From Acorus gramineus (taxonomy: Eukaryota > Streptophyta > Magnoliopsida > Acorales > Acoraceae): 64,000 nucleotides of DNA. Within the stretch, counting starts at the first letter, position 1; each line of letters starts with the position of its first letter. The position numbers and the translations under genes were made by a program. Below are positions 18,555 to 64,000 of this stretch, piece after piece. The notes beneath the pieces were generated by a model that did no database searches, was not told where the DNA came from, and worked only from the letters and a program-made list of their open reading frames with translations. Location: positions 8,967,434 through 9,031,433 of the forward strand of contig CM060855.1 of NCBI GenBank assembly GCA_030737835.1. Direction: 5' to 3'.

Positions 18555-18660
18555 CATACCCAAAAACATATGTCAATCTAGGGTTTAGATTTGGATAAAA
18601 TTTTACGCATACCCAAAAACATATGTCAATCTAGGGTTTAGATTTGGATAAAATTTTACC
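18555..18660. repeat. 53-bp direct tandem duplication
   Basis: The unit beginning 'catacccaaaaacatatgtc' occurs at 18555 and again at 18608, nearly identical. Each copy contains 'ctagggttta', a telo-box-like word. It lies inside the Harbinger-like element. Confidence 0.9.
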
Positions 18661-37900: not shown

Positions 37901-40900
37901 TAACAACGTGATGAACCCATCAACTCCCTCCCCCCCCCCCCCCAACCCAATCAGCTGCACCATTCCTTCCCCTCCATCGACCAGCCAACCATGGCTTCCC
38001 GTCTTCCTTTTTGTGCACCTCAGTACGTAATTTTAGGCCCCCTAATGCCTTTTAAAACATTGCTTCCTACCTTGAAGTTTATGATATATGTAAACCACTA
38101 TAACTGCTAATTTTAAATAAGCTATCCTGATTTTTTTTACCTGAAGGCGTTTGATCCTTAAATCTTTAATTAAACACACACACACACACACGCTTTCCCC
38201 TTGTATGATTTTCACCCATTCTTTTTACACCTTTCCTTTTTTTCGCTTGGCTCTTTGTACACCTTTCGGCTATACATATTTTAAGTCTTTGCATGTGTTG
38301 TCGATTTTTTTTGTTACAGTTTAGTGTCTTTTTTTTTGTCATAACACCTACGTCCAGGCTCCAACTTTTTAATTGAATTGATGAAGATCGGCTTACATTA
38401 AGTATAAATTTTTATAGGAACCAGTCAACAAAGCATATCGTGGTATTGGGTTCATAAGTTTTAAAAATTCAGGTAAGCCAGTTTTTTTTTTTTTTGTAAG
38501 AAAAAAAATTTAATATGTTGATTGTATTTATGTTCATACAATCAACATATTAATATGTTCATAACCTGAGATTTATTATGTATTTAACTGCTTTTGGAGT
38601 TTGTGAAAGGCATTTCCGTTGCATTTTTTACTTCCTACTCCACCCATTCTCTGATATGACATTGAATTTTGATGCAAGACTGATGCAACTTACTGGGAGT
38701 AAGTCAGGTGGTTTTATAGCAGGAATAACAACCATTGACTTACTAATCTTGTCTAGATCATTGGTGTAGAAATTTAGAAGAAGGTAGAAAGACCTTCAAT
38801 GATCTTTAATGATCTAGAAATTTTGGACTCCATTTGGTGGAATTTGAAAAAGAGCGCCTGCCAAAATTGTATGTTGATTGCATTAGGTATAGAGGGTCAA
38901 CCATCAACACTTATCTTTCACATTTCTTATGGATGTGCTGACCTTGGATTTTAAAGACAAGGTGTCTTGTGTGTGTTGTTTGCAGATGATCTAATTTAAG
39001 TAAAGTGAATGCTTTTAATTTTGGTTGTCAATTCTATAGAAGAAAAAAGACTGAAATTTTGTGAATAAAAAATTTAGTAGAGGATATTGTTGGATTGGAT
39101 TGCAAAGAGATTTTCAAACTAATTTCCGTTAGCTTTGATTCCTCCATACAAGAGGATGACAATATATTTTCCTTAAAAAAGGACAAATTAAAGACAGAAC
39201 GAAGAACCCAAGTAACCATATTTATAATGAAGTTCAATCCAAGCCGGGCAGTTCCGGGGAGGCAGGTGATTGCTATATAGAGGAACATCTCACCGAAGAA
39301 TTAAAACAGAATTGTTGGGTTGGAGAGGAGCCATTGGTGTTTTATGTGATTGCAGCATATCATTGAGGCTTAATCAAAATTATACCAGATTGTCAAGAAA
39401 CTTGGTATGCTAAATGGTTAAGAGTTTTAGGCCGTAAAGAATTACTTGAGCATAATTTATGTGCAGCAGAAATGAGGATGCTGACATGAATGGGTGGTTA
39501 TTGGGGAAAGGAATTTAAAACTGGTATAATGTTCCGTGGTGCGAGGTGGGATCTCACCACCTGTAATTTATCGATGACTGTTAAAATTCTCACAATCAGT
39601 AATTTGTTGTTGACCTTTTCTATTTGTAAGGAATATTGACTAGTCCTTTTGTCAAAATAAATTATGGACGAATTGTTAATACCAGCTCCTCATGCTAACT
39701 TGCTGAGATGATGATTGTTGACTGAACAGATTCTGTCGATACCCTTATGACAGAAACTCATACATTGGGTGGCTCTGTCCTACTAGTTGATCGAGCATTT
39801 CCAAAGGCAACTCTCAGCACACTAATCATTTACTATTGCCATTTTTGTTGAATGATTATTTTTATCTGCATATTTCGGAGGTTGTATCTTCCAGGTGTTG
39901 CAGCTATTACTGGTGATTTATTCTGATTATCTGGATCCTCTATTTGACAATATTGTTCACTTAATGATGGGTTCAGGATGAGAATGCAAGGAAACCAAGC
40001 AGAGGAATGCAGGGTCAATATGGTTTATATAATGCTTATATTACACCGGTGACTAGGTATGCAGCACATGGTGCTCTGATGAAATATGATTCTGCTGGTT
40101 TGGCATATGGAAGTAAGTATTTCCAGTTTGATGTTTATCTGAATGTAGGTTGATAATAACATGCAGTTCCTATATTGTCTTTCGATGATGATAGGGGTCT
40201 CAGGACCTTCCCGTGGAATGGGCAAGAAGTTATTTGTTGGCAAGCTTCCTCAGGAGGCTAGTTCTAAAGAATTACGCCAATACTTTGGCAAATTTGGCCA
40301 GATTACGGATGTGTATGTCCCAAAGGTAATTTGCAGTCATTTTAACTTGCATTATTGGAAAAAAAAAAAAACAGTAAACACATAAACATTTCCATTCATG
40401 TAATCAGGATCTGAAGAAAGCTGGTCATAGGGGCTTTGGTTTTGTAACATTTGCTGAAGATGGTGCTGCCTATCGTGTCTTTCACAGGGCCCATGAGATC
40501 CTTGGACAAAAGGTATTTGAATAAAATAGAAGTTCAAACATCTTATTTGTTGCACTGGTATAGGCTTTTTTCTGTTATAAAAAAAACATTGTGAGATTTT
40601 TTTGCATTTTTTCAACTTAATTATTTCAGCTTTGAAGGGTAGTGTCATGAAGAGAATCCAGTACTGATGTGGACATCATGTTAGTGCTATCCTATCTGTA
40701 ATATTAGATTCAATTTGCCAAAAAGGTCATGTGATAATGAGTTCTTTTTTTAGAAAAAATAAATACTGGACTGCTTTAGAAATCTCAAATACAGTACTAT
40801 CATTCTTAATATTATCTTTGTTTACAATGATCAGATATTCTGTTCCAAGCTGAGGTAGTGCAATCGTTTCTTCTTATCTGTCGGATGCAGGTTAGAATAG

Positions 40901-41731
40901 ATTCAGCTATACCTCGTGATGATTCTGGAGCAAATGGTAGTTACATGGAAGATGTTGGATCTTATGGTGGATATGAAGGTCCTATGCGTAATGCATATAG
41001 CCGAGTCCACGAAAGCTTGGAATTCAGGGATGTGAGTATATTCATAGTTTCGGTTAATATCTGTCACTGTTGTTTTCTTACACGGTTAGAATAGATTCAG
41101 CTATACCTCGTGCTGATTCTGGAGCAAATGGTAGTTACATGGAAGATGTTGGATCTTATGGTGGATATGGAGGTCCTATGCATAATGCATATAGCCGAGT
41201 CCATGAAAGCTTGGACTTCATTGATGTGAGTATATTCGTACTTTAGGTTAATAATATCTGTCATTGTTTTCTTCAATGGCATTAGAAATCCTTGTTCACC
41301 TGATGTGCCACATTTTTAATTAGTGTGTTGAATGTTATGAATGAGATCTGATTTTACGATTCTTTGATGTTGGTTTTGTTGGATTTGGGTTAATCAAAAT
41401 TAGAATTTTCGAGTTTATGAAATTTTTTGGTTGATTCTTCATGGAAAAATGACTCCCTATTTCTTTTCTTTTTTATTTGCCCAATTTTTCTCAAACTTAC
41501 CTGAATTTTATCTAATCGTCAATTTCTGCCTTCCCGAAATTATTCCCCAATCAGAAACTTCGTTTCATCAGTACATAACATAAATTTCACACAAATGTTT
41601 CATTTTGGGCAAGGGTCTTGTATTGCATCGACATCTATTTTATGCTTTCCTTCATGCAGTGGAGTTACAGAGGTTGCAGCAGCAACAGCAGACTCTCACA
41701 TATGGACGACTGGAGGTACAGGCCATATTGA
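34928..41731 (+). CDS. Three-RRM hnRNP-like RNA-binding protein, 13 exons, frame broken in exon 7
   Basis: Exons: 34928-34945, 35065-35154, 36179-36244, 37012-37076, 37196-37294, 37371-37416, 38418-38474, 39730-39806, 39977-40112, 40195-40325, 40408-40512, 40891-41031 and 41660-41731. RRM1 spans exons 1-4 (SLFVCRIP, then RGYGFVAF). RRM2 spans exons 5-8 (RIFINRIP, then RGIGFISF). RRM3 spans exons 10-12 (KLFVGKLP, then RGFGFVTF). The C-terminus ends DDWRYRPY. Proteins of this DAZAP1/hnRNP A-like type bind mRNA and act in processing or transport. All phases agree except at exon 7: a six-T run makes the exon 57 nt where neighbours need 55 (mod 3), so exon 8 would be read out of frame and stop within seven codons, giving about 153 aa instead of about 366. 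It may be a homopolymer error, a real lesion, or avoided by an earlier weak donor at 38458. Introns 5 and 8 start with GC. Confidence 0.8.
37295..37370 (+). other. GC-AG intron (RRM gene intron 5)
   Basis: The donor is AAAG|GCAAGT and the acceptor TTTGCAG|T. Only this pair keeps the RRM2 frame (AVLQ to S-HFEVYGEIE). The rest of the donor matches the strong consensus, as is usual for GC donors. Confidence 0.75.
37544..37752. mobile_element. MITE family C in intron 6 of the RRM gene
   Basis: The left arm has 'ggaaaatctcgcatcggta' and 'atgcttgaatggatgac'; the reverse-complemented right arm has 'ggaaaatttcatatctgta' and 'atgcttggaatggatgat'. The arms are about 65 bp each. A related copy lies at 23925-24132. 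Confidence 0.65.
38511..38552. repeat. Perfect 17-bp hairpin in intron 7
   Basis: 'taatatgttgattgtat' (38511-38527) and its exact reverse complement (38536-38552) are separated by 8 nt. It lies 37 bp after the exon 7 donor. Confidence 0.9.
39807..39976 (+). other. GC-AG intron (RRM gene intron 8)
   Basis: The donor is CAAAG|GCAACT and the acceptor TTCAG|GAT. It joins LLVDRAFPK to DENARKPSRG in frame. No in-frame GT donor is nearby. Confidence 0.6.
40891..41280 (+). repeat. 194-bp tandem duplication of exon 12 and its following intron
   Basis: Copy 1 (40891-41084) contains the used exon 12. Copy 2 starts at 41085 and repeats the same 141-bp coding unit (41085-41225) with the same GTGAGT donor. 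Copy 2 is open in the same frame with a few substitutions (for example RADSG for RDDSG, YGGYGG for YGGYEG). In front of copy 2 the sequence is 'cttacacg', so the AG acceptor present before copy 1 (gatgcag) is missing. It is therefore probably skipped. Confidence 0.9.
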
Positions 41732-50635: not shown

Positions 50636-51165
50636 CAGATGATGATCTTTTATTTTGTTATTTTCAATATTCATTTCGATCAATCGCCTTCTGATTCTCT
50701 CTGCGAAAGGTAAAAACATCTCCTCCTTTGATTTTCTCCACAACATCGCATTTGATCCCCTCTTCTTCTCTTTTTTCGCAGGGTATCGATTTGGTCGCCC
50801 CCAAGTCCGACGACGTCTATCTCAAGCTCCTCGTCAAGGTCCATCTCTCTCTCTCACTCTCTCTCTCAATCCTCACATCAAATCTAGGGTTTCTCAATCG
50901 GATCTCTGTTTCCCAGACGACCAGCTCTACAGGTTCCTCGTGAGGAGGACCGGGAGCAAGTTCAATGCGGTCATCCTGAAGAGGCTGTTCATGAGCAAGA
51001 CCAACAAGCCCCCCATCTCCATTTCTACGCTCGCCAAGCTCATGAGCGGAAAGGTCCGTCTCTTGTCTTCTGTTTGTGTTTTTTGAATTTTGTATTGTTG
51101 ATGTGTTTCAGTGGTGCATTGTAGGAGGACAAGATCGCTGTGATTGTGCGGACTGTGACGGACGT
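50636..51165 (+). pseudogene. RPL18: 60S ribosomal protein L18 gene, truncated
   Basis: Three exon-like blocks match eukaryotic L18e: 50782-50838 ([19 protein letters not shown]), 50925-51053 ([20 protein letters not shown]...LAKLMSGK) and 51125-51165 (EDKIAVIVRTVTD). L18 is a structural protein of the large ribosomal subunit, about 187 aa in plants. The copy looks dead: about 11 residues normally after GIDL (basic GGKSKKTK-type segment) are missing. The usual ATG just before GGTATCGAT is not seen (the leader exon ends GCGAAAG). The gene ends abruptly after VTD, losing the C-terminal two thirds, where a second copy of its own 5' flank begins. The introns are retained, so it arose by DNA duplication and not by retroposition. 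Confidence 0.75.
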
Positions 51166-51300
51166 CTCTCTAGATGAGCAGATGGTCTTTTGTTCTTTTC
51201 AATAATCGTTGCGATCGCCTTCTGATTCTCCCTGCGAAAGGGAAAAGCATTCCCCTCTTTTTGACTGTCTTCACAAATCACAACATCGCATTCGTTTAGT
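51166..51300 (+). repeat. Second copy of the L18 5' flank and leader
   Basis: 51172-51300 matches 50630-50760: 'gagcagatg', 'atcgccttctgattctc', 'ctgcgaaag', then 'cacaacatcgcatt'. The duplicate lacks any L18 coding exon and runs into unrelated sequence with an ATG frame at 51352. Confidence 0.8.
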
Positions 51301-52389
51301 CTCCTCCAACCGATTGATTGGCTCAGGAACTCCGATTTCTATGCGAGGTGATGATTTCTCGTCAGTTAGGGTCCCTTATTTTCAGTTCTTGATGGAATTC
51401 TTGGTCAGTCTTTTGATTTGTTTTTGTTTTCTTGTTTTTAGTGACATAGTTTTGACCGTGAGTCACTATAGTGCAGAACAAATTACATAATGGTTGCTGA
51501 TATTTACATCTAATGTTCGTATATGTTCAAATTATTCAAAATCGTGATGATATCTGATAATTGGTGTACTGATAGTTAGATTTCATGATCCGGAGATGTA
51601 ATTCTCACATTGGAAAGAATTCTCCATGCAAACTGAGTAGCATCTGCACTAAGTGTTTCTGTTAATGTATATGAGTCTTTATGTGGATTTAATGTTTGGG
51701 GGAGATACTGTCTGAGATACCGTCTAACCTTATCCTGCTTGTTTTTTAAAAAAATTTAAAATCTATGCCGTGGCGATGATGATTTAGTCATTTGATTGTT
51801 CTAATGAATATATGATTATCTCATTTTTTTTAATATTAAAGTTTGTGCATTTTTAACCCCTTCAATTGATGTCATTGTAGACCAATATAATAGAGGATGG
51901 GGTCTTCCAGATGTTAGTTGTCAGCTGATTTGTCATTGGCCGATGCAAACCATCCATCTGGTGTTACGATGTGGAAAAGTATGTAGGGTCTCATTCATTA
52001 TAACAAAGCATCTTTCGGAGAGATATTGGATCAAACTATGACTGGAAACATGAATAATAGCCTGAGTGCTGATCCTTTCATCAGATAATACCCAAGTAAG
52101 ATACTATATAAACTTATGGTGCAATAGCTTTTCCCTATTTATTGTTTTTTTGGAAAGTTAAATGCTTGATGTTTCCCAGCCATCAAACTCCAAGGCATTC
52201 TGCTGCTAGCGCACTTGATAGTGATGAATGGTTCATGGACCATGAGATATTGGTATAATATCATAGGTGTACATTTAATGGACCATGTTTAAGTGATATT
52301 TTGTGAAAAATGTTTTGAGTTTCTTGTGCACATACATTGTATTGTTCTTTGTGCACATTCATACTTGAGTCCATTCTGTTCTCATCCAG
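51301..52389. other. Rearranged spacer, no clear gene
   Basis: A short frame starts at 51352 (MRGDDFSSVRVPYFQFLMEFL) and could be an exon ending before GTCAGT near 51403, but it was not matched to a family. From 52112 the sequence is a member of the direct repeats described separately. Confidence 0.35.
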
Positions 52390-52925
52390 GAGGTAGAGGG
52401 TGAGAGGTATATATACACTTCCTCATTGCTTAGCTTATTGGCCGAGTGTAACGTTCGTCCACCTGTTATGAATGCTTCTGCTATTATCGATGGAGCAAAG
52501 GTAATGTTTGTTTTTCCCAAACCATGTATTCCTTTCTTCCTGTTCATTTCTATCAATGTTTCACATTTTGAAAAAAAAAATGATTTACAGTTTCCGGTCC
52601 TTGAATCTCTTCGTTTGACCTTTTAAGTTTCAGCCCCATAACTAATTTTCTTTCCTTTTCCCTTCTTTTTGATAGTGTAATTTGTCACCAATTTTATAGT
52701 CATCTTTTCTACCCAGACAATATATGTAATCTGTTTTTGTTGTTACCAATTTGTCCTTGAATCTCTTCGTTGGACTTATGGTGCAATAGCTTTTCCCTAT
52801 TTATTATTTTTTTGGAAAGTTAAATGATTGATGTTTCCAAGGCATCTTGGTGCCAGCATACTTGAAGTGGTGAATGTTTATGGACCATGAGACATATGTA
52901 TAATATCGTAGTTGTATTTTCTTTA
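52112..52925. repeat. Direct repeats 662 bp apart
   Basis: 'acttatggtgcaatagcttt' at 52112 and 52774 begins about 150 bp of collinear similarity (through 'atggaccatgaga'). The phrase 'gtccttgaatctcttcgtt' also occurs twice (52597 and 52753), the second time at the join. This is a local tandem duplication. Confidence 0.85.
52390..52500 (+). pseudogene. Displaced exon of a coiled-coil protein gene (copy 1)
   Basis: This 37-codon exon is bounded by 'catccag' and GTAATG and encodes EVEGERYIYTSSLLSLLAEC ... NASAIIDGAK without a stop. A second, damaged copy lies at 56797-56899, where it is collinear with exons at 55.5-57.8 kb. The intact copy is therefore 3 kb upstream of where the gene order would place it. 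Product family unknown; a plant coiled-coil/FHA-type protein is a weak guess. Confidence 0.5.
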
Positions 52926-53640
52926 CTGCTGTAATTTCTCTAGTGCAAAATTCTATTTCTTTACAATGTTGATTTTGGTTTATAGCTTTGTAACTCACGA
53001 TTTTTTTCCATCCATCTGAAAGGAGCCCATCTCTGATCACAGCCTAGTGGCAAACATTTGAAATATTTGAACAACCTTTGTTCAAAAGTAAGAGGAGTCT
53101 CAAAATGTGGTCTGGAGATCCATGTATCAGGATATATCAGTTATAATAAGAAAAAACTTCTCTAAAAAAAATCAATTGCCCCAGCAGCAATGCAAGGGAG
53201 CACTCAAAATAATAATAGAACTTCCAAGCTATAGTGATTTGTGGTAAAGATGATCCATGGAAGTTTCGACCTTGAAATCTACCATGGGGGCATAGTGATC
53301 TAACTGCTGCCATTATTATGTAACGCAACAGAGGTGTATTATAATCTCAGAAGCAGTGTTTTAGGCTTCACAACATGAATAAAAGATAATACATTAGGAA
53401 CTCACTCACCAATCCTGTGTTTATCTACTGAACAGAAGAGCCCCTGCAGTTTTTCTACAAAGGTAACTCTTCTTGTCAGCAAATAAGAATGAATATGCAC
53501 AATTAATGTAGGACACCAAGGAGAGGGGGAAAGCTAAACATAAGGATGACAACTGAATACGCACATTCCAAAGCAGTGACAGACAGAAGATAGGGAGACC
53601 TACCTTCAAGAGTTTGATAGATGGACTCAATACAGTAATT

Positions 53641-53892
53641 CTATGTTTGTTTTAGATGCTCAAATTCACTGCAGTCAACACTGACTTCATGGAATGCTGA
53701 GTATAACTTAGGTAGAATCTTGGCCAGCATAAGCCGGAAACCAACAGAGCTTGAATGCTCGTTGCTTTGATCGGTCATGCAAGCATCTTTTGTTAGAGAA
53801 CCCACTAAGCATCCTTTCATGTACGCATCACATGCTTGCAGAATGAAAAGTCCACGCCTCCTGAAATGGTTTTTAACAAAGCCTTCAAAATG
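53641..53892 (-). pseudogene. Last exon of a UBC25/UBC26-like E2 ubiquitin-conjugating enzyme
   Basis: The exon starts after 'gatgcttgcag' and encodes HFEGFVKNHFRRRGLFILQA ... TDQSNEHSSSVGFRLMLAKILPK ... EFEHLKQT, then a stop. This is the C-terminal extension after the catalytic UBC fold in the large plant E2s of the UBC23-26/PHO2 group, closest in memory to UBC25/26. The catalytic domain with its cysteine is not found on the minus strand in the next 5 kb. The exon is therefore orphaned, although open and with a good acceptor. It lies antisense within the mosaic of coiled-coil exons. Confidence 0.6.
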
Positions 53893-55844
53893 CTGCAAGC
53901 ATCACGTGATAATCAACCAAGATTAGTGATAACATCTTTTTTTTTTTTGGCTTGATAATAACATCAAAATTCAACTAAAGGAAAGTGAGTGTACTTTAAA
54001 AGAAGTGGTTTCACAGGTATTATAGATATCCCCGGTTAAACAAATACATGAGGATCAACATCTTTTTAGAATGATAGATATTGAGTTTGAAAACGGGCAA
54101 TAGTATGAAACTTCCTAACCCACTCGGTGATTGTATGGTAAATTCAGGAAAACAAACCTTTCCAACAAACTCATTATGTGCACATCATCCATCCAATTAT
54201 GGTGGTGGTAAGATCTCTGATTGGTGAAATATTTTTATGGCTACAAAAGCCATGTCCAAAGTTTATTGAGATTTTTAGTTTTGAGGCTTATAGATGTAAT
54301 ATATAAGTAATATTTTTCCTTGAAAAATTATATAGAAGTATTCGTTTTTTAGTAATTTCAGGTTTTCAGATATAAAAGTTTACGAAGGGAGGAATCAAAT
54401 CAACGTTGGGATTTAAAGTTTACGAAGGGAGGAAGACCAAAAAAATCTAATCTTGACTCATGTGGATAAGTTGATTGTTAGTTTTTATTTTGAACAATTC
54501 ACTTGTGGGAATTTTTTTTTGAAGAAAATGTAAGAGTCTATATATTAAAAAGTTACTATAAGGATTTAATCTAGACCATAGCTCTTTAGGATTTTGAATA
54601 AGTGATTTGTGCTTTAGACAACACGGTCTTGCATAAGTTCCTAGGGGCAATATGGGAGATATGCTATGTTAAGGTTTTTTTTCAGAGCTTGAGGTGCTTG
54701 ACAAATGTTGACTGAGTGGATGTTTTTCATCTTTTTTTTTTCTCGTGTGGATTTTATGCTCTTGAGGAGATTGTAATTTTAGAATGAGGAAATATATATA
54801 ATTTTATAATAATATACTGAATTCAAATTATTTTCCAGAGTTGGATACCTCAATACCCAGATTTACTTCATAGTTGATAGACTTATATACAAAGTTCATT
54901 TATTAGATGATGTCCCATTGACAGTGACTATACCTTTCCTCCACTGATGAATGTCCTCTGACAAATTAGAAAGCTAAACAATTGGGTGGTGGGATGTTCC
55001 CATATCTAGTTGTCTGAGTCTACATTCATTTGAGAGGTGGTCTTGGTTTCATGAGTTGTGATCAAGTTGGTTTGTTGTGGCAGGGAAAATGGGCGCATCT
55101 GTTCCTTAATTGAGAGGATGTCATGCATCATAAATTCTAAAATGTGCTTATTCTCATTGACATTTGTCGAGAAGCATAAGGAGTATGCTTGTATGGGTTA
55201 AGATTTCATTTTTTTTAGAATTAATTATAGGATGGTGCAACGTGAACTATGAGTAAACATATGTAGGTATTTGAGTTCATTGAGATAGTCATGGAAATAT
55301 CCTGCATGCTTTTGTTTTGTTGCATTTGTGGCATTTTACCATAAAGGATCCTGCATGCTTTTATTTTGTTGCATTTGATTAGGCATGTGATGCTGCTGGG
55401 GGCTGAGATTTTGGAAACAAAACACCAAAATGAAATGGAAGTAAAAAAATGGCCAATAATGAATTTCAACAACTTCGTGTCTCATTTCTTTGCAGTCTCA
55501 AGGATTTATTTGGATAAAATGTGGTTTTCAAAACCTACAGGAACGTTTTGCAAGGTTACAGGCGCAGAGAAAGGAAATTCTGCTACTTGTTGATGCCTGT
55601 ATTAAGGTAATGTGAACTAGTGCTGCTTACTCAGATGCATAGTGCCTTTTATAAGTTGGTGGGCCATTCGTTTGCATTGAACATGGATATTTTCTTTTTC
55701 AGGAGCTGCACTTAGTGAATGAGAAACATGCCTTGGAAAGCAAACTTTCAGATTTAAGAAAGGCTCGTATAAATTTTGAATGGGAAAGTTAATAGATAGA
55801 TTTTTCTTGTTTATTGAGTTCTAATGAATATATTATTTTTGAAC

Positions 55845-56605
55845 ATCAGGCAATTGATGAGAAGCAGAGTGATGCCGTATCCGATACTTTTAAGGAGCTG
55901 GATAACAGAAAAGGTTACCTTGAAGAAAATAAAAAACTGACCAATGATCTGCTGGTATGGCGTCGGTCTGCATCTTTAATGAAATGCAATTTTGTCTCAG
56001 ATTTATTTTTTGCATCATGCATGCTAACTGCATAGAGTCTGTAGTGAAATCTTGAGTAAGTAATAATCGCATAAATTTAACATTAAACAAGACAACTTGA
56101 TCACCTTAAAAATGACAGCATTATTGCAATGTGATGAATTGTGTCAAGATTCAAATAAAATATCAGGATCTTGATGGATACTGACACACTGGAATGTCTT
56201 CATGTTTAACAGTAAAATTTTCAAATAATATTGATGAGAAGCAGAGTGATGCCATATTTGATGCTTTTAAAGAGCTGGATAACAAAAAAGTTTGCCTTGA
56301 AGAAATTATAAGCTGGACAACGATCTGAAAGTATATTATCGATCTCCATCTTTCATGAAATGTTGAAATCTTTTTCATGATCTTTGGGTCAGAATTATTC
56401 TTGCATCATGCATGCTAACTGCATATAGTCTCTAGCTGAATCTTGGTTGAGTAATAGTGGCATAAAGTAAACATGAAATGAGAAAACCTTATCATCTTAC
56501 AAATGACCGTATTATTGCAATGTGATGAATTGTGTCAATATATATAATAATATCAGGAATGTTGATGGATATTGGCAAAACAGAATATCTTCATGTTTAA
56601 CCATG
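55845..56605 (+). repeat. 377-bp tandem duplication covering one exon and its intron
   Basis: 'attgatgagaagcagagtga' occurs at 55853 and 56230. Similarity continues through 'gcatcatgcatgctaactgc' and 'attgcaatgtgatgaattgt' for about 375 bp. The second copy is more degraded. Confidence 0.9.
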
Positions 56606-56701
56606 AAAGGTAAAATAATATTGAGCTTTTATAATTTTTAAGGACACAGCATATCTAAATTTTTTATTACAATATATTTGGGAAATCTATGTGCATTAAT
56701 C

Positions 56702-56733
56702 TCCCCCCCCCCCCCCAAAAAAAAAAAAAAAAA
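56702..56733. repeat. C-run followed by A-run
   Basis: About 15 C then about 17 A. Length is likely unreliable in sequencing. Confidence 0.85.
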
Positions 56734-56769
56734 GAACTTTCAAGTTTCTAAGATATGTTAATAAGTTGT

Positions 56770-57195
56770 ACCTAAATCCATTCTGTTATTATCCAGGAGG
56801 TAGAGGTTGAGAGGTATGTATACACTTCCTCATGGCCGATTATATTGTTCGTCCACCTGTTATCAATGCTTCTGCAATTACCAATGGAGAGCTGAGGTGA
56901 TGTTTGTTTTTCCCAAATCATGTACTCCTTTCTTAGTGTTCATTTCTGTCAATGCCTTACATTTTGAGAATAAATTGATTTACAGTTTCCGGTCCTTGAG
57001 AATCTCTTTGTGGGACCTTTTTAAGTTTCAGCCCCATACGTAATTTTCTTTCTTTTCCTTTCTTTTTTATAGTATAATTTCCACCAATTTTATAGTCATC
57101 TCTGTACCTAGGCAAGATAGGTAATCTGTTTAAGTGATATTTTGTGAAAAATGTTTCGAGTTCTTGTGCACATTCATTGTATTGTTCTTTACCTT
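56770..57195 (+). repeat. Copy of 52290-52745 in permuted order
   Basis: 56770-57133 matches 52361-52745 (exon plus intron: 'gtttgtttttccca', 'gatttacagtttccggtcct', 'ccaccaattttatagtcatc'). 57133-57195 matches 52289-52352 ('aagtgatattttgtgaaaaa'), which precedes the exon in the first copy. The order is therefore circularly permuted, as at the join of two tandem units. Confidence 0.8.
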
Positions 57196-57806
57196 GGAAG
57201 GCACCTATAAATAGAATGAAGATATATGTGATATCTAGATGACTAGTTGAACTCATTGACTTGACTGTGAGCAATCTTAAGCTTATATTCTAATAGAACT
57301 TGACAGGTGATCAACCTTAATGTGTAATATTGATCCTGTGATCCATCAGATCATAATTATTTGTTTTTCTTGCTTTGGAACAACATCATAATTATGTCCA
57401 AAAAGGAACTTTTCTTGTTATCATGGATACTGCTGTTCTGGCAAATTTCAAGATTGTAAAAAAATTTGAAAATTTCCCCAAAGGTTGGTTAGTTACTTGC
57501 ATACATATCTGAGTATGGGAAGCTCCTTCCACTTTTCGACACAATTACATCTAAAACAATAATGATAGGATTTTGGGATATCCACCACCACCACCATCCA
57601 TTATAATACATATTATCCAACATATATGCACACAAAAAGGATTGTTGACACTTTTTATACATTTGATTGTAATTCAGTTTTTATCTTCGTTTTCTTGCAA
57701 ATGAGTATATTGAAGAGGAGCTACATATACTAACCTGATTTTCTGTTTGCTAAATAATTTTCAGCATCTATATCGTCAGTTGCAATGGAGGATAAGGCCT
57801 TCTCAT

Positions 57807-58269
57807 GTAAGTTACATCTGATAAACCTCAAAGTGACATTCTTATATATTTCTAAGCATGGTCATATTTTCAATTTTTACTTGGTTAAGACTTCATATTA
57901 TATGTCAATATTTAGTGTTGAATGTTGTTCTAAATAAGATTTTTTTGTTTTTATCATAATAATTAATAATTAAACACAAAGATGGAAATATTTATATTGT
58001 TGAGACAAATATAGGGCACTAAATTATTATGATGCTTAGACCAACTTATGAATCTTAAATATGTCTTTTTTTTACATCAAGATAAAGTGCCATTGTGCTT
58101 GTAAAGATGAGAAACTCATGACACATGTATGCGAACTTCTTAATGAAATATTTCAATCCAAAATTTTGTTAGTTGCTATATAAAATCTAAGAAGAACAAA
58201 ACATACATATAAATGACTTTATTACCATTTTAGTTTGTGTATTATTAATCACTATTTAATGGTTGAAGT
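57807..58269. other. AT-rich spacer before the copia fossil
   Basis: No coding region. It is probably intron or flank of the broken coiled-coil gene. Confidence 0.4.
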
Positions 58270-58531
58270 CAAATCTCAGGAATCAGAATATTTCAGAACC
58301 TAGAGTTAGACGATGTGTAGTGAAAAAAAGAAGAAAGTAAATGAAATATTGTTATCTACAATAATGGAGATCAAAAGGTCACAAACTCACAATATATGCA
58401 AAACATTAGAAATAGAAAAGATCAAAAAACCAATGACAAAACTTGAGCCTTCGGGCCATAGGCATATTCCTCTATAATAAGTCCAATACTCTCCCTCAAG
58501 TTATAGCGAAGATATCAATTAAGCCTAGCTT
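58270..58531 (-). mobile_element. 3' end of a Ty1/copia element: pol end, polypurine tract and LTR-like sequence
   Basis: On the minus strand the RNase H region runs on into a typical copia C-terminus (KLGLIDIF). It is followed by a purine tract 'cttgagggagag' (58489-58500) and then AT-rich sequence that should be the 3' LTR (approximately 58489 down to 58270; outer end uncertain). This is the only place in the window where the unit has this natural continuation, so it marks the boundary of the array. Fossil. Confidence 0.55.
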
Positions 58532-61500
58532 GGTAAAGTTATAACAAAGAGTAGAGAGACTGACTGACTTAGTGAACATGTCAGCAAGTTGCTCATTGGA
58601 GAAGACAAAAATTGTGTCAATGGCACCCGATTGGACTTTCTCTTGGAGAAAGTGAACGTCAACCTCAATGTCTTTGATCCTCTCATGAAGAACGGAGTTT
58701 GAGGCAAGCATAATGGCATTCCGATAATTAGAGAATAAGGTAGATGAACTTGCTACAGGGAATCCCAAGTCGGTCAAAAGAGAGCGTAGCCAAATGATCT
58801 CCGACCTTGTGAGATCGTGTCAAGTGTGGGTAAAGCTGAATACACCTAGCTTTCTCATGCCGGTATCTTTCAAGTGGTCACAAGTCACTATCACTACGTC
58901 CACGACTAAGACCATGACCACCATTGCCTTGACTGCGAGTCATATCTAGAATTGGCCGCCAATGCCATCTGGGTGTCCTAGTGGTTGCTAAAGAGGAGAT
59001 TTGACGGCGACGCTCATCACCATCAATGATAGCAAATGTCTCATATAGAGAAGGAAGTGTGGTATTCAAAATCTGAACACGAACAGACTCGAACTCTAGT
59101 CGAAGGCCCATAAGAAACACAGTCTGTTGGCGCTGCAGTCGACTAACCACAAGCTTGATGACCTCTATAGACAACTCTGAGACAAACTCATAGAGGGCAA
59201 GCTCTTCCCAATGAGCTTGAAGAAATCCAAAGTAGTTGGCAACAATCTGTGTACCTTGGGTGGCTTGGGCAATATCCTTCTACAACTCATAAATTCTTGA
59301 GTTATTCCTGGCATGAGCATAGGTCTTCATCAGTTCAGCCCACAAAGAGTTGACCGTCCCATGAAACATGAACATACTATAAATCCGGTTCTCAATGGAG
59401 TTAAAGAGCCAACCTAGTACCCTACAGTTGTCAATCTCCCATTGATTGAGGGTCGGATCGGTGGCTGCCAGCTTTGTAACGATGCCAAAAAGCAAGCCTA
59501 TCCTGCCTTGACTACCCAAATATAACCAAACAAAGTTAGAACAAAGAGTAGAGAGACTGACTGACTTAGTGAACATGTCAGCAAGTTGGTTATTGGAGGA
59601 GACAAAAATTGTGTCAATGGCACCCGATTGGACTTTCTCTTGGAGAAAGTGAATGTCAACCTCAATGTCTTCGATCCTCTCATGAAGAACGGAGTTTGAG
59701 GCAAGCGTAATGGCATTCTGATAATTAGAGAATAAGGTAGATAAACTTGCTACAGGGAATCCCAAGTCGGTCAAAAGAGAGCGTAGCCAAATGATCTCCG
59801 ACCTTGTGAGATCGCGTCAAGTGTGGGTAAAACTGAATACACCTAGCTTTCTCATGCTGGTATCTTTCAAGTGGTCACAAGTCACTATCACTACGTCCAC
59901 GACTAAGACCATGACCACCATTGCCCTGACTGCGAGTCATATCTAGAATTGGCCGCCAATGCCATCTGATCACTGGGTGTCCTAGTGGTTGCTAAAGAGG
60001 TGATCTGACGGCGACGCTCATCACCATCAATGATAGCAAATGTCTCATATAGAGAAGGAAGTGTGGTATTCAAAATCTGAACACGAACAGACTCGAACTC
60101 TAGTTGAAGGCTCATAAGAAACACAGTCTGTTGGCGCTGCAGTCGACTAACCACAAGCTTGATAACCTCTATAGACAACTCTGAGACAAACTCATAGAGG
60201 GCAAGCTCCTCCCAATGAGCTTGAAGAAATCCAAAGTAGTTGGCAACAATCTGTGTACCTTGGGTGGCTTGGGCAATATCCTTCTACAACTCATAAATTC
60301 TTGAGTTATTCCTGGCATGAGCATAGGTCTTCATCAGTGCAGCCCACAAAGAGTTGACCGTCCCATGATACATGAACATACTATAAATCCGGTTCTCAAT
60401 GGAGTTAAAGAGCCAACCTAGTACCCTACAGTTGTCAATCTCCCATTGATTGAGGGTCGGATCGGTGGCTGCCAGCTTTGTAACGATGCCAAAAAGCAAG
60501 CCTATCCTGCCTTGACTACCCAAATATAACCAAACAAAGTTAGAACAAAGAGTAGAGAGACTGACTGACTTAGTGAACATGTCAGCAAGTTGCTCATTGG
60601 AGAAGACAAAAATTGTGTCAATGGCACCCGATTGGACTTTCTCTTGGAGAAAGTGAACGTCAACCTCAATGTCTTTGATCCTCTCATGAAGAACGGAGTT
60701 TGAGGCAAGCATAATGGTATTCCGATAATTAGAGAATAAGGTAGATGAACTTGCTACAGGGAATCCCAAATCGGTCAAAAGAGAGCGTAGCCAAATGATC
60801 TCCGACCTTGTGAGATTGTGTCAAGTGTGGGTAAAGCTGAATACACCTAGCTTTCTCATGCTGGTATCTTTCAAGTGGTCACAAGTCACTATCACTACGT
60901 CCACGACTAAGACCATGACCACCATTGCCTTGACTGCGAGTCATATCTAGAATTGGCCGCCAATGCCATCTGGGTGTCCTAGTGGTTGCTAAAGAGGAGA
61001 TTTGACGGCGACGCTCATCACCATCAATGATAGCAAATGTCTCAAATAGAGAAGGAAGTGTGGTATTCAAAATCTGAACACGAACAGACTCGAACTCTAG
61101 TTGAAGGCCCATAAGAAACACAGTCTGTTGGCGCTGCAGTCGACTAACCACAAGCTTGATGACCTCTATAGACAACTCTGAGACAAACTCATAGAGGGCA
61201 AGCTCTTCCCAATGAGCTTGAAGAAATCCAAAGTAGTTGGCAACAATCTGTGTACCTTGGGTGGCTTGGGCAATATCCTTCTACAACTCATAAATTCTTG
61301 AGTTATTCCTGGCATGAGCATAGGTCTTCATCAGTGCAGCCCACAAAGAGTTGACCGTCCCATGATACATGAACATATTATAAATCCGGTTCTCAATGGA
61401 GTTAAAGAGCCAACCTAGTACCCTACAGTTGTCAATCTCCCATTGATTGAGGGTCGGATCGGTGGCTGCCAGCTTTGTAACGATGCCAAAAAGCAAGCCT

Positions 61501-64000
61501 ATCCTGCCTTGACTACCCAAATATAACCAAACAAAGTTAGAACAAAGAGTAGAGAGACTGACTGACTTAGTGAACATGTCAGCAAGTTGGTTATTGGAGA
61601 GACAAAAATTGTGTCAATGGCACCCGATTGGACTTTCTCTTGGAGAAAGTGAATGTCAACCTCAATGTCTTTGATCCTCTCATGAAGAACGGAGTTTGAG
61701 GCAAGCGTAATGGCATTCTGATAATTAGAGAATAAGGTAGATAAACTTGCTACAGGGAATCCCAAGTCGGTCAAAAGAGAGCGTAGCCAAATGATCTCCG
61801 ACCTTGTGAGATCGCGTCAAGTGTGGGTAAAACTGAATACACCTAGCTTTCTCATGCCCATATCTTTCAAGTGGTCACAAGTCACTATCACTACGTCCAC
61901 GACTAAGACCATGACCACCATTGCCCTGACTGCGAGTCATATCTAGAATTGGCCGCCAATGCCATCTGATCACTGGGTGTCCTAGTGGTTGCTAAAGAGG
62001 TGATCTGACGGCGACGCTCATCACCATCAATGATAGCAAATGTCTCATATAGAGAAGGAAGTGTGGTATTCAAAATCTGAACACGAACAGACTCGAACTC
62101 TAGTCGAAGGCCCATAAGAAACACAGTCTGTTGGCGCCGCAGTCGACTAACCACAAGCTTGATAACCTCTATAGACAACTCTGAGACAAACTCATAGAGG
62201 GCAAGCTCCTCCCAATGAGCTTGAAGAAATCCAAAGTAGTTGGCAACAATCTGTGTACCTTGGGTGGCTTGGGCAATATCCTTCTACAACTCATAAATCC
62301 TTGAGTTATTCCTGGCATGAGCATAGGTCTTCATCAGTTCAGCCCACAAAGAGTTGACCGTCCCATGAAACATGAACATACTATAAATCCGGTTCTCAAT
62401 GGAGTTAAAGAGCCAACCTAGTACCCTACAGTTGTCAATCTCCCATTGATTGAGGGTCGGATCGGTGGCTGCCAGCTTTGTAACGATGCCAAAAAGCAAG
62501 CCTATCCTGCCTTGACTACCCAAATATAACCAAACAAAGTTAGAACAAAGAGTAGAGAGACTGACTGACTTAGTGAACATGTCAGCAAGTTGGTTATTGG
62601 AGGAGACAAAAATTGTGTCAATGGCACCCGATTGGACTTTCTCTTGGAGAAAGTGAACGTCAACCTCAATGTCTTTGATCCTCTCATGAAGAACGGAGTT
62701 TGAGGCAAGCATAATGGCATTCCGATAATTAGAGAATAAGGTAGATGAACTTGCTACAGGGAATCCCAAGTCGGTCAAAAGAGAGCGTAGCCAAATGATC
62801 TCCGACCTTGTGAGATCGCGTCAAGTGTGGGTAAAACTGAATACACCTAGCTTTCTCATGCCCATATCTTTCAAGTGGTCACAAGTCACTATCACTACGT
62901 CCACGACTAAGACCATGACCACCATTGCCCTGACTGCGAGTCATATCTAGAATTGGCCGCCAATGCCATCTGGGTGTCCTAGTGGTTGCTAAAGAGGTGA
63001 TCTGACGGCGACGCTCATCACCATCAATGATAGCAAATGTCTCAAATAGAGAAGGAAGTGTGGTATTCAAAATCTGAACACGAACAGACTCGAACTCTAG
63101 TTGAAGGCCCATAAGAAACACAGTCTGTTGGCGCTGCAGTCGACTAACCACAAGCTTGATGACCTCTATAGACAACTCTGAGACAAACTCATAGAGGGCA
63201 AGCTCTTCCCAATGAGCTTGAAGAAATCCAAAGTAGTTGGCAACAATCTGTGTGCCTTGGGTGGCTTGGGCAATATCCTTCTACAACTCATAAATCCTTG
63301 AGTTATTCCTGGCATGAGCATAGGTCTTCATCAGTGCAGCCCACAAAGAGTTGACCGTCCCATGATACATGAACATATTATAAATCCGGTTCTCAATGGA
63401 GTTAAAGAGCCAACCTAGAACCCTACAGTTGTCAATCTCCCATTGATTGAGGGTCGGATCGGTGGCTGCCAGCTTTGTAACGATGCCAAAAAGCAAGCCT
63501 ATCCTGCCTTGACTACCCAAATATAACCAAACAAAGTTAGAACAAAGAGTAGAGAGACTGACTGACTTAGTGAACATGTCAGCAAGTTGGTTATTGGAGG
63601 AGACAAAAATTGTGTCAATGGCACCCGATTGGACTTTCTCTTGGAGAAAGTGAATGTCAACCTCAATGTCTTTGATCCTCTCATGAAGAACGGAGTTTGA
63701 GGCAAGCGTAATGGCATTCTGATAATTAGAGAATAAGGTAGATAAACTTGCTACAGGGAATCCCAAGTCGGTCAAAAGAGAGCGTAGCCAAATGATCTCC
63801 GACCTTGTGAGATCGCGTCAAGTGTGGGTAAAACTGAATACACCTAGCTTTCTCATGCCCATATCTTTCAAGTGGTCACAAGTCACTATCACTACGTCCA
63901 CGACTAAGACCATGACCACCATTGCCCTGACTGCGAGTCATATCTAGAATTGGCCGCCAATGCCATCTGGGTGTCCTAGTGGTTGCTAAAGAGGTGATCT
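58532..64000 (-). repeat. Tandem array of about 1.0-kb units derived from a Ty1/copia retrotransposon, about 5.5 copies, running off the right edge
   Basis: The same unit is repeated head to tail. The same landmark (the Met of MTDLGFPVAS) falls at 58777, 59774, 60778, 61774, 62778 and 63775, giving spacings of 997, 1004, 996, 1004 and 997 bp. Each unit contains, on the minus strand, the C-terminal part of copia RNase H (NSVLHERIKDIEVDVHFLQE, QLADMFTKS) and the N-terminal and middle part of copia gag (LNQWEIDNCRVLGWL; FLMGL.LEFESVRVQILNTT; DGDERRRQ). Protease, integrase, reverse transcriptase and LTRs are absent from the units. Every unit is broken, with a few interruptions each, and none looks functional. 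Units appear very similar, so amplification is probably recent relative to the parent insertion. Confidence 0.92.
59529..60533 (-). repeat. One representative unit of the copia-derived array
   Basis: The window shows units with borders near 58532, 59529, 60533, 61530, 62533 and 63530. Within a unit, gag-like sequence occupies roughly the upper and lowest coordinates seen from the RNase H landmark and RNase H-like sequence the middle. The order along the minus strand is gag part, RNase H part, gag part of the next unit. The border used here is the place where the first unit stops resembling the others. Confidence 0.6.

Follow-up and report, generated by a model that had tools for sequence, protein, structure and literature searches.

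A single-locus array of 16 tandem units made from Ty1/copia gag and RNase H sequence in Acorus gramineus

Tandem repeats born from retrotransposons are already established, some of them derived from gag. The array described here belongs among them. It was found in Acorus gramineus (assembly GCA_030737835.1, contig CM060855.1, called C9 below) at the right end of a stretch of 64,000 nucleotides, C9:8967434-9031433, which is referred to as the window, and its units join two parts of a Ty1/copia element. For maize, CRM1TR and CRM4TR were reported as tandem arrays derived wholly from one long terminal repeat (LTR) retrotransposon; the monomer of CRM4TR, which is known from just one locus, measures about 1.4 kb, and in CRM1TR conversion was described over at least 71 and up to about 200 bp (PMC3648361). 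Illegitimate recombination was proposed for their start, and short direct repeats at the joint were reported absent in that account (PMC3648361). In Lathyrus sativus, satellites arose from tandem repeats inside Ogre elements and expanded into long arrays (PMC7004042). Rye E3900 contains a partial gag frame and chicken HinfI a part of CR1 ORF2; according to the review that treats them, any part of an element can serve as a satellite source (PMC9659126). Gag and pol are named among satellite sources elsewhere (PMC12628747). For Cassandra elements a tandem head-to-tail array of at least 12 copies was reported (PMC7215508). An initial annotation of the window, made from its letters only, had called a unit of former coding sequence less usual; the gag- and ORF-derived cases covered by the review show such repeats to be less rare than that wording implied (PMC9659126).

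The same annotation had placed about 5.5 units on the minus strand at the end of the window and supposed that the array continued beyond it. Neighbouring stretches past the window end were fetched from contig C9 to follow the array, and both statements were confirmed. In window coordinates the array starts at 58535 and ends at 74480, with 16 head-to-tail units whose sense strand is the minus strand; five full units (58535-63535) and 465 bases of the sixth lie inside the window. Contig C9 measures 20.4 Mb, with the array near 9.03 Mb, in a genome of 398.6 Mb in 137 contigs. Matches to the Bet v 1 family, 12 of them and each past the cut-off, agree with a plant genome. The units visible in the window are:

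58535-59534, minus strand: unit 1, the left edge unit, with the RNase H end at about 58535-58801 and gag at about 58799-59534
59535-60538, minus strand: unit 2, 1004 bp, with the 7-base insert allele
60539-61535, minus strand: unit 3, 997 bp
61536-62538, minus strand: unit 4, 1003 bp, with the 7-base insert allele
62539-63535, minus strand: unit 5, 997 bp
63536-64000, minus strand: unit 6, 997 bp, of which the first 465 are inside the window; units 7-16 continue beyond it to 74480

Unit length is 987-1004 bp, typically about 997 bp, and the 16 units are 98.15% identical on average (pairwise range 97.0-99.7%). At each of the 16 unit places blastn gave E = 0.0, which rules out chance. Full-length copia elements between units, which would have spoken against a true array, were not found, and the 14 joint-to-joint spacings are all 987-1004. 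The GC content of the array is 0.446, compared with 0.345 over window positions 1-58000. No N bases occur in the window or in the fetched loci L001-L030. The Tandem Repeats Finder (TRF) listing of the window, with a longest period of 500, does not contain the array. A higher-order repeat was considered and rejected: insert-bearing units alternate at the left end, yet identity by lag is flat at 97.9-98.4% for lags 1-15.

The composition of the unit was judged against a full-length relative from the same genome, L017, by Pfam and tblastn. In the open reading frame (ORF) of this relative, 1285 residues long, the copia domains follow one another as gag (Retrotran_gag_3, 43-85), integrase (rve, 595-691) and RVT_2 (977-1220). 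The Ty1/copia order of gag, integrase and reverse transcriptase in one frame was thus found in L017, on which it was tested, and not in the array itself. When the L017 proteins were compared with a dimer of units 3 and 4, gag residues 61-320 and residues 56-143 of the 156-residue RNase H-end frame aligned, and together they cover the whole unit. The first approximately 60 residues of gag are missing, the zinc knuckle is included, and the RNase H part comprises about 90 residues, ending about 13 residues before the RNase H end. Since the two alignments span the monomer over its full length, the unit is, on this similarity, entirely former Ty1/copia coding sequence, with gag fused to the RNase H end. 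This agrees with the content given in the initial annotation. Pfam detected no gag or RNase H match in four unit ORFs alone and no match in the RNase H frame of L017; the 3' frame is presumably RNase H, since it follows RVT_2, where the order generally known for copia elements would place it. A within-unit pattern lying in gag was matched, with up to 3 mismatches, in the 16 units and at 33 further places including L017. A tandem of elements sharing LTRs was rejected, as the unit contains no LTR, gag and RNase H account for it, and the joint spacings are too tight.

Two joints have to be distinguished, the tandem joint between units and the fusion joint of gag and RNase H within them. The DNA similarity search skips common words and did not return the window's own array, so its absences are uninformative. 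Instead, joints were counted by exact-pattern searches with up to 3 mismatches, in which arrays diverged further could be missed. The first tandem joint is:

59525-59553, no strand assigned: first tandem joint, from the gag side to the RNase H side, with an AAA overlap at 59532-59534

Its pattern gave 15 matches in the 398.6 Mb genome, all within the array. These 15 joints are identical, without a single mismatch, and lie at every unit boundary. The reversed pattern, used as control in the same search, gave none. With up to 3 mismatches allowed, no further array with this joint was found elsewhere in the genome. Side by side with single-unit copies, the unit ends have AAA in common at the tandem joint, and one short-homology tandem duplication would be the simplest reading of this sequence. 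The array is therefore a single-locus array, and a genome-wide satellite is excluded at up to 3 mismatches. With 16 head-to-tail, homogenised monomers the term satellite-like, used in the initial annotation, is justified for its form. The high copy number, usually at several loci, of a satellite was not observed, as all 15 tandem joints lie at one place, and the term does not hold for its abundance.

Relatives with only one unit were identified on contigs C7 (L013), C4 (L014) and C1 (L015). They match both sides of the array collinearly, so that a single-copy parent form exists outside it. Their mean identity to the array units is 88.9% (C7), 84.9% (C4) and 85.8% (C1); in the C4 copy about 97 bases are missing at one gag end. 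The fusion joint, searched in the forms of C9, C7 and C1 with up to 3 mismatches, was found at 16 places in the array and outside it singly on C4, C7 and C1 and at C9:16.71 Mb. At this joint three bases, GAG on the sense strand, can be assigned to either side. The internally deleted copia element and the coding origin of the unit, both proposed before, are borne out by these fused copies and the alignment over the whole unit. The deleted element is not private to the array site.

All 16 units have an in-frame stop in gag at one and the same position, and by motif match so do the C4 and C1 copies. In the C7 copy the motif was unmatched, but a stop was read there by eye, with a 3-base insertion beside it. 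As the stop is common to all units and the single-unit copies, the element was dead before amplification. From these single-unit copies with the same fusion it follows that the array developed within an old copy, dead and pol-deleted. Variable single-nucleotide polymorphism (SNP) columns are distributed over codon positions 1/2/3 as 5/8/9 in the first 470 gag bases and as 4/5/4 in RNase H, with no sign of protein selection. A kept reading frame was ruled out by the shared stop and this spread of variants, and hence no function is proposed. The longest open frame within any unit has 133 residues; ORFs of 178 residues span the joint.

Two further arrangements were seen among the fetched relatives. 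Part of the RNase H end occurs twice at L022:3900-4321 and L023:5563-5984 (overlapping matches 1-122 and 33-231 of one piece), as though a relative of this dead element had undergone a small tandem duplication of its own. Ahead of the full-length copia element with a long open gag-pol frame at L017:3823-9222 lie another RNase H end (411 bp, 99.5%) and LTR-like DNA, as if two elements shared an LTR.

We consider the following history likely. A deletion that began behind the zinc knuckle of gag and ended within RNase H would have removed most of the interior of a Ty1/copia element. One such dead copy would have come to lie on the border of a degenerate minisatellite, within an older repeated segment that has relatives on several contigs; the shared fusion joint, the shared flank and the collinear single-unit copies point to this ancestry. 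At one locus 997 bp lying wholly within the fused coding sequence would then have been duplicated head to tail in place over a 3-base match. The joint itself is directly visible, and end-joining or template-switch repair may have produced it. The pair would have expanded to 16 units through unequal exchange or similar steps, and frequent short conversion-like exchange may have been the main process that homogenised the units and left the two-state mosaic observed.

This mosaic comprises 83 variable columns across the units, gap columns included, and all of them are two-state. In a comparison of 53 SNP columns with the outgroup copies, only one allele matched at 46, both at 6 and neither at 1. 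Of the 946 pairs that the informative SNP columns form, 483 show all four combinations, and at least 11 exchanges are required. Linkage between such columns falls quickly with distance: mean r2 is 0.73 within 10 bp, 0.36 up to 30 bp, 0.19 at 30-60 bp and 0.11 at 60-120 bp, and then 0.075-0.09, compared with 0.06-0.07 in column shuffles. Identity by unit distance is flat (98.02% at lag 1, 98.32% at lag 5, 98.24% at lag 10, 98.15% overall), and the edge units, with 98.18 and 98.43%, are no more diverged than the rest. Across the tandem joint linkage is 0.04, versus 0.11 between the ends of one unit (56 site pairs); neither shows much.

Both kinds of exchange were simulated roughly, with a fixed number of 16 units, hand-chosen rates and 13 settings of 6 runs each. 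Under unequal exchange neighbours were above-average alike, edge units were diverged and r2 at 60-250 bp was 0.21-0.35. Conversion-like exchange gave neither a neighbour nor an edge effect, and r2 at 60-250 bp was 0.07-0.15. In these models conversion-like exchange accounts for the mosaic better than unequal exchange alone. Unequal crossing-over, proposed in the initial annotation, remains plausible as the way in which the array expanded, but the mosaic now seen has more the look of short conversion-like exchange. It is conceivable, though we put it forward tentatively, that this 16-unit array in a dead retroelement is near linkage equilibrium at tens of bases, with short non-reciprocal exchange outpacing unequal crossing-over; neighbours and edge units would then be the same as the rest. 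If true, the array together with its single-unit relatives would be a clean natural system for measuring the tract length and direction of conversion in a young array.

Several points weigh against the history given above. Every simulated setting failed on some measure, and among those that gave a value none reached the observed linkage within 10 bp (r2 0.73, versus 0.22-0.30 for simulated conversion and 0.28-0.58 for unequal exchange). A slight excess of linkage extends out to 500 bp (0.09 versus 0.07). The 3-base overlap at the tandem joint is short enough for chance. Furthermore, a single assembly underlies both the copy number and the mosaic, and polishing that mixes reads between units could yield two-state mosaics. 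An assembly artefact, in which the true unit number differs or the mosaic was made by consensus polishing, is partly compatible with the proposed history. Two-state sites of middle frequency with short-range linkage, in a single assembly, are what mixed polishing could give. However, one allele alone matches the outgroup at 46 of the 53 SNP columns, as mutations after the duplication would and random error would not. Moreover, the units differ by 0.3-3% and by indels (987-1004), both edges are clean, and N bases are lacking. An artefact is thus unlikely.

The remains of the dead element and its older surroundings are found on both sides of the array:

57792-58311, minus strand (strand of the copia piece rather than of the flank itself): left flank, older repeated DNA, recognised by similarity at other loci
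58327-58489, minus strand: 3' LTR belonging to the dead copia fragment, about 160 bp; towards the array, a polypurine-like tract was recognised by eye
Array end 74480 to about 74760: leader with primer-binding-like sequence, right of unit 16

The 3' LTR is 70-72% identical to the short LTRs of L016 and L017 over about 115 bp. At the matching place identity is 76-80% in L013-L015, L024 and L025 and 77% in L022-L023. A 5' LTR was not found: over the 31.5 kb that follow the array on the right, the LTR queries matched stretches of 19-29 bp only. With only a 3' LTR detected and an in-frame stop in gag in 16 of 16 units, the element has neither the two LTRs nor the open gag of the TR-GAG type, a gag-only LTR element. 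The left flank (57792-58311) is present at at least 10 other fetched loci (40 of 178 candidates were scored). Seven of these (L013-L015, L022-L025) contain the copia piece or a part of it and three (L026-L028) do not, which suggests that the piece was inserted or trapped before the segment reached most of its present places.

The flank at 51282-58311 of the window is a patchwork, and pieces of at least 100 bp recur with 73-91% likeness on C1, C4, C7 and C9; hence the array sits in an old dispersed segment. An ORF at 50646-51083 on the plus strand matches ribosomal protein L18 over 44 residues (Pfam PF17135, E 2e-16) and is perhaps a gene fragment or exon. This was the sole Pfam match past the cut-off among ten left-flank ORFs. 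Directly behind the leader a degenerate minisatellite with a motif near CATGAATCCGAGACATACTCCCC occupies about 74760-87000 in window coordinates (L010-L012), with few or no copies at about 80000-82000 and 84000-85000. Stretches related to it were matched at all 10 related loci compared. Short repeats listed by TRF in the window lie at 40890-41253 (194-bp unit, 1.9 copies, 94% matches) and 18555-18659 (53-bp unit, 2 copies, 100%).

An extrachromosomal circle had been offered in the initial annotation as another route of amplification; the fused element would have formed the circle and returned to the chromosome as a concatemer. Extrachromosomal circles of retroelements exist and would yield a uniform joint and head-to-tail units, and homologous exchange could reinsert the concatemer into the same element. 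Circles that arise by LTR recombination carry one LTR, however, whereas the unit has none. The array is also collinear with the single-unit copies on both sides within the old element. As it kept both unique edges, distant reinsertion is unnecessary, and with the 3-base overlap at the joint a circle need not be invoked; we regard it as improbable. Template switching during reverse transcription, inserting the repeat as a ready array, is hardly credible: it often does give rise to internal deletions at short matches such as that of the gag-RNase H fusion, but the old flanking segment is common to the one-unit loci, so that the insertion is older than the array, and a 16-kb RNA from a dead element is unlikely.

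In the history of in-place duplication that we prefer, the array would represent an early stage whose before state is still present: the one-unit element at several loci, the exact first joint and the expanded, homogenised array. Thus the order of the steps, namely deletion, death, duplication, expansion and homogenisation, can be read. Knowledge of where satellites come from is unchanged by it. A literature search on retrotransposon-, copia- and gag-derived satellites, in which subscription journals were mostly uncovered, returned no title or abstract start naming a monomer purely of copia gag and RNase H; this is weak evidence.

Compared with the described systems, the Acorus array resembles CRM1TR and CRM4TR as an array derived wholly from one LTR retrotransposon, and it occupies a single locus as was reported for CRM4TR (PMC3648361). 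The monomers of CRM1TR and CRM4TR consist of LTR and untranslated region of Ty3/gypsy centromeric elements and are 97-98% identical to extant parents (PMC3648361). In contrast, the Acorus monomer contains only Ty1/copia gag and RNase H, its tandem joint has a 3-base overlap, and its single-unit copies are 85-89% alike. The Ogre-derived satellites share the retrotransposon source, and two of nine were described as often lying in non-autonomous copies that had lost pol by large deletions (PMC7004042). They start, however, from short repeats downstream of gag-pol, whereas the Acorus unit is coding region and confined to one locus (PMC7004042). The Cassandra array is likewise head-to-tail and built from a non-autonomous retroelement, but its unit includes the LTR, which the Acorus unit lacks (PMC7215508). 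E3900 and HinfI, like the Acorus unit, contain former coding sequence of a retroelement inside the monomer (PMC9659126). By the description in the review this is only part of their monomers, whereas gag and RNase H make up the Acorus monomer throughout (PMC9659126). Less common here is the combination of a monomer purely of copia coding sequence with a single-unit form that is still present, a detail within a known kind of tandem repeat.

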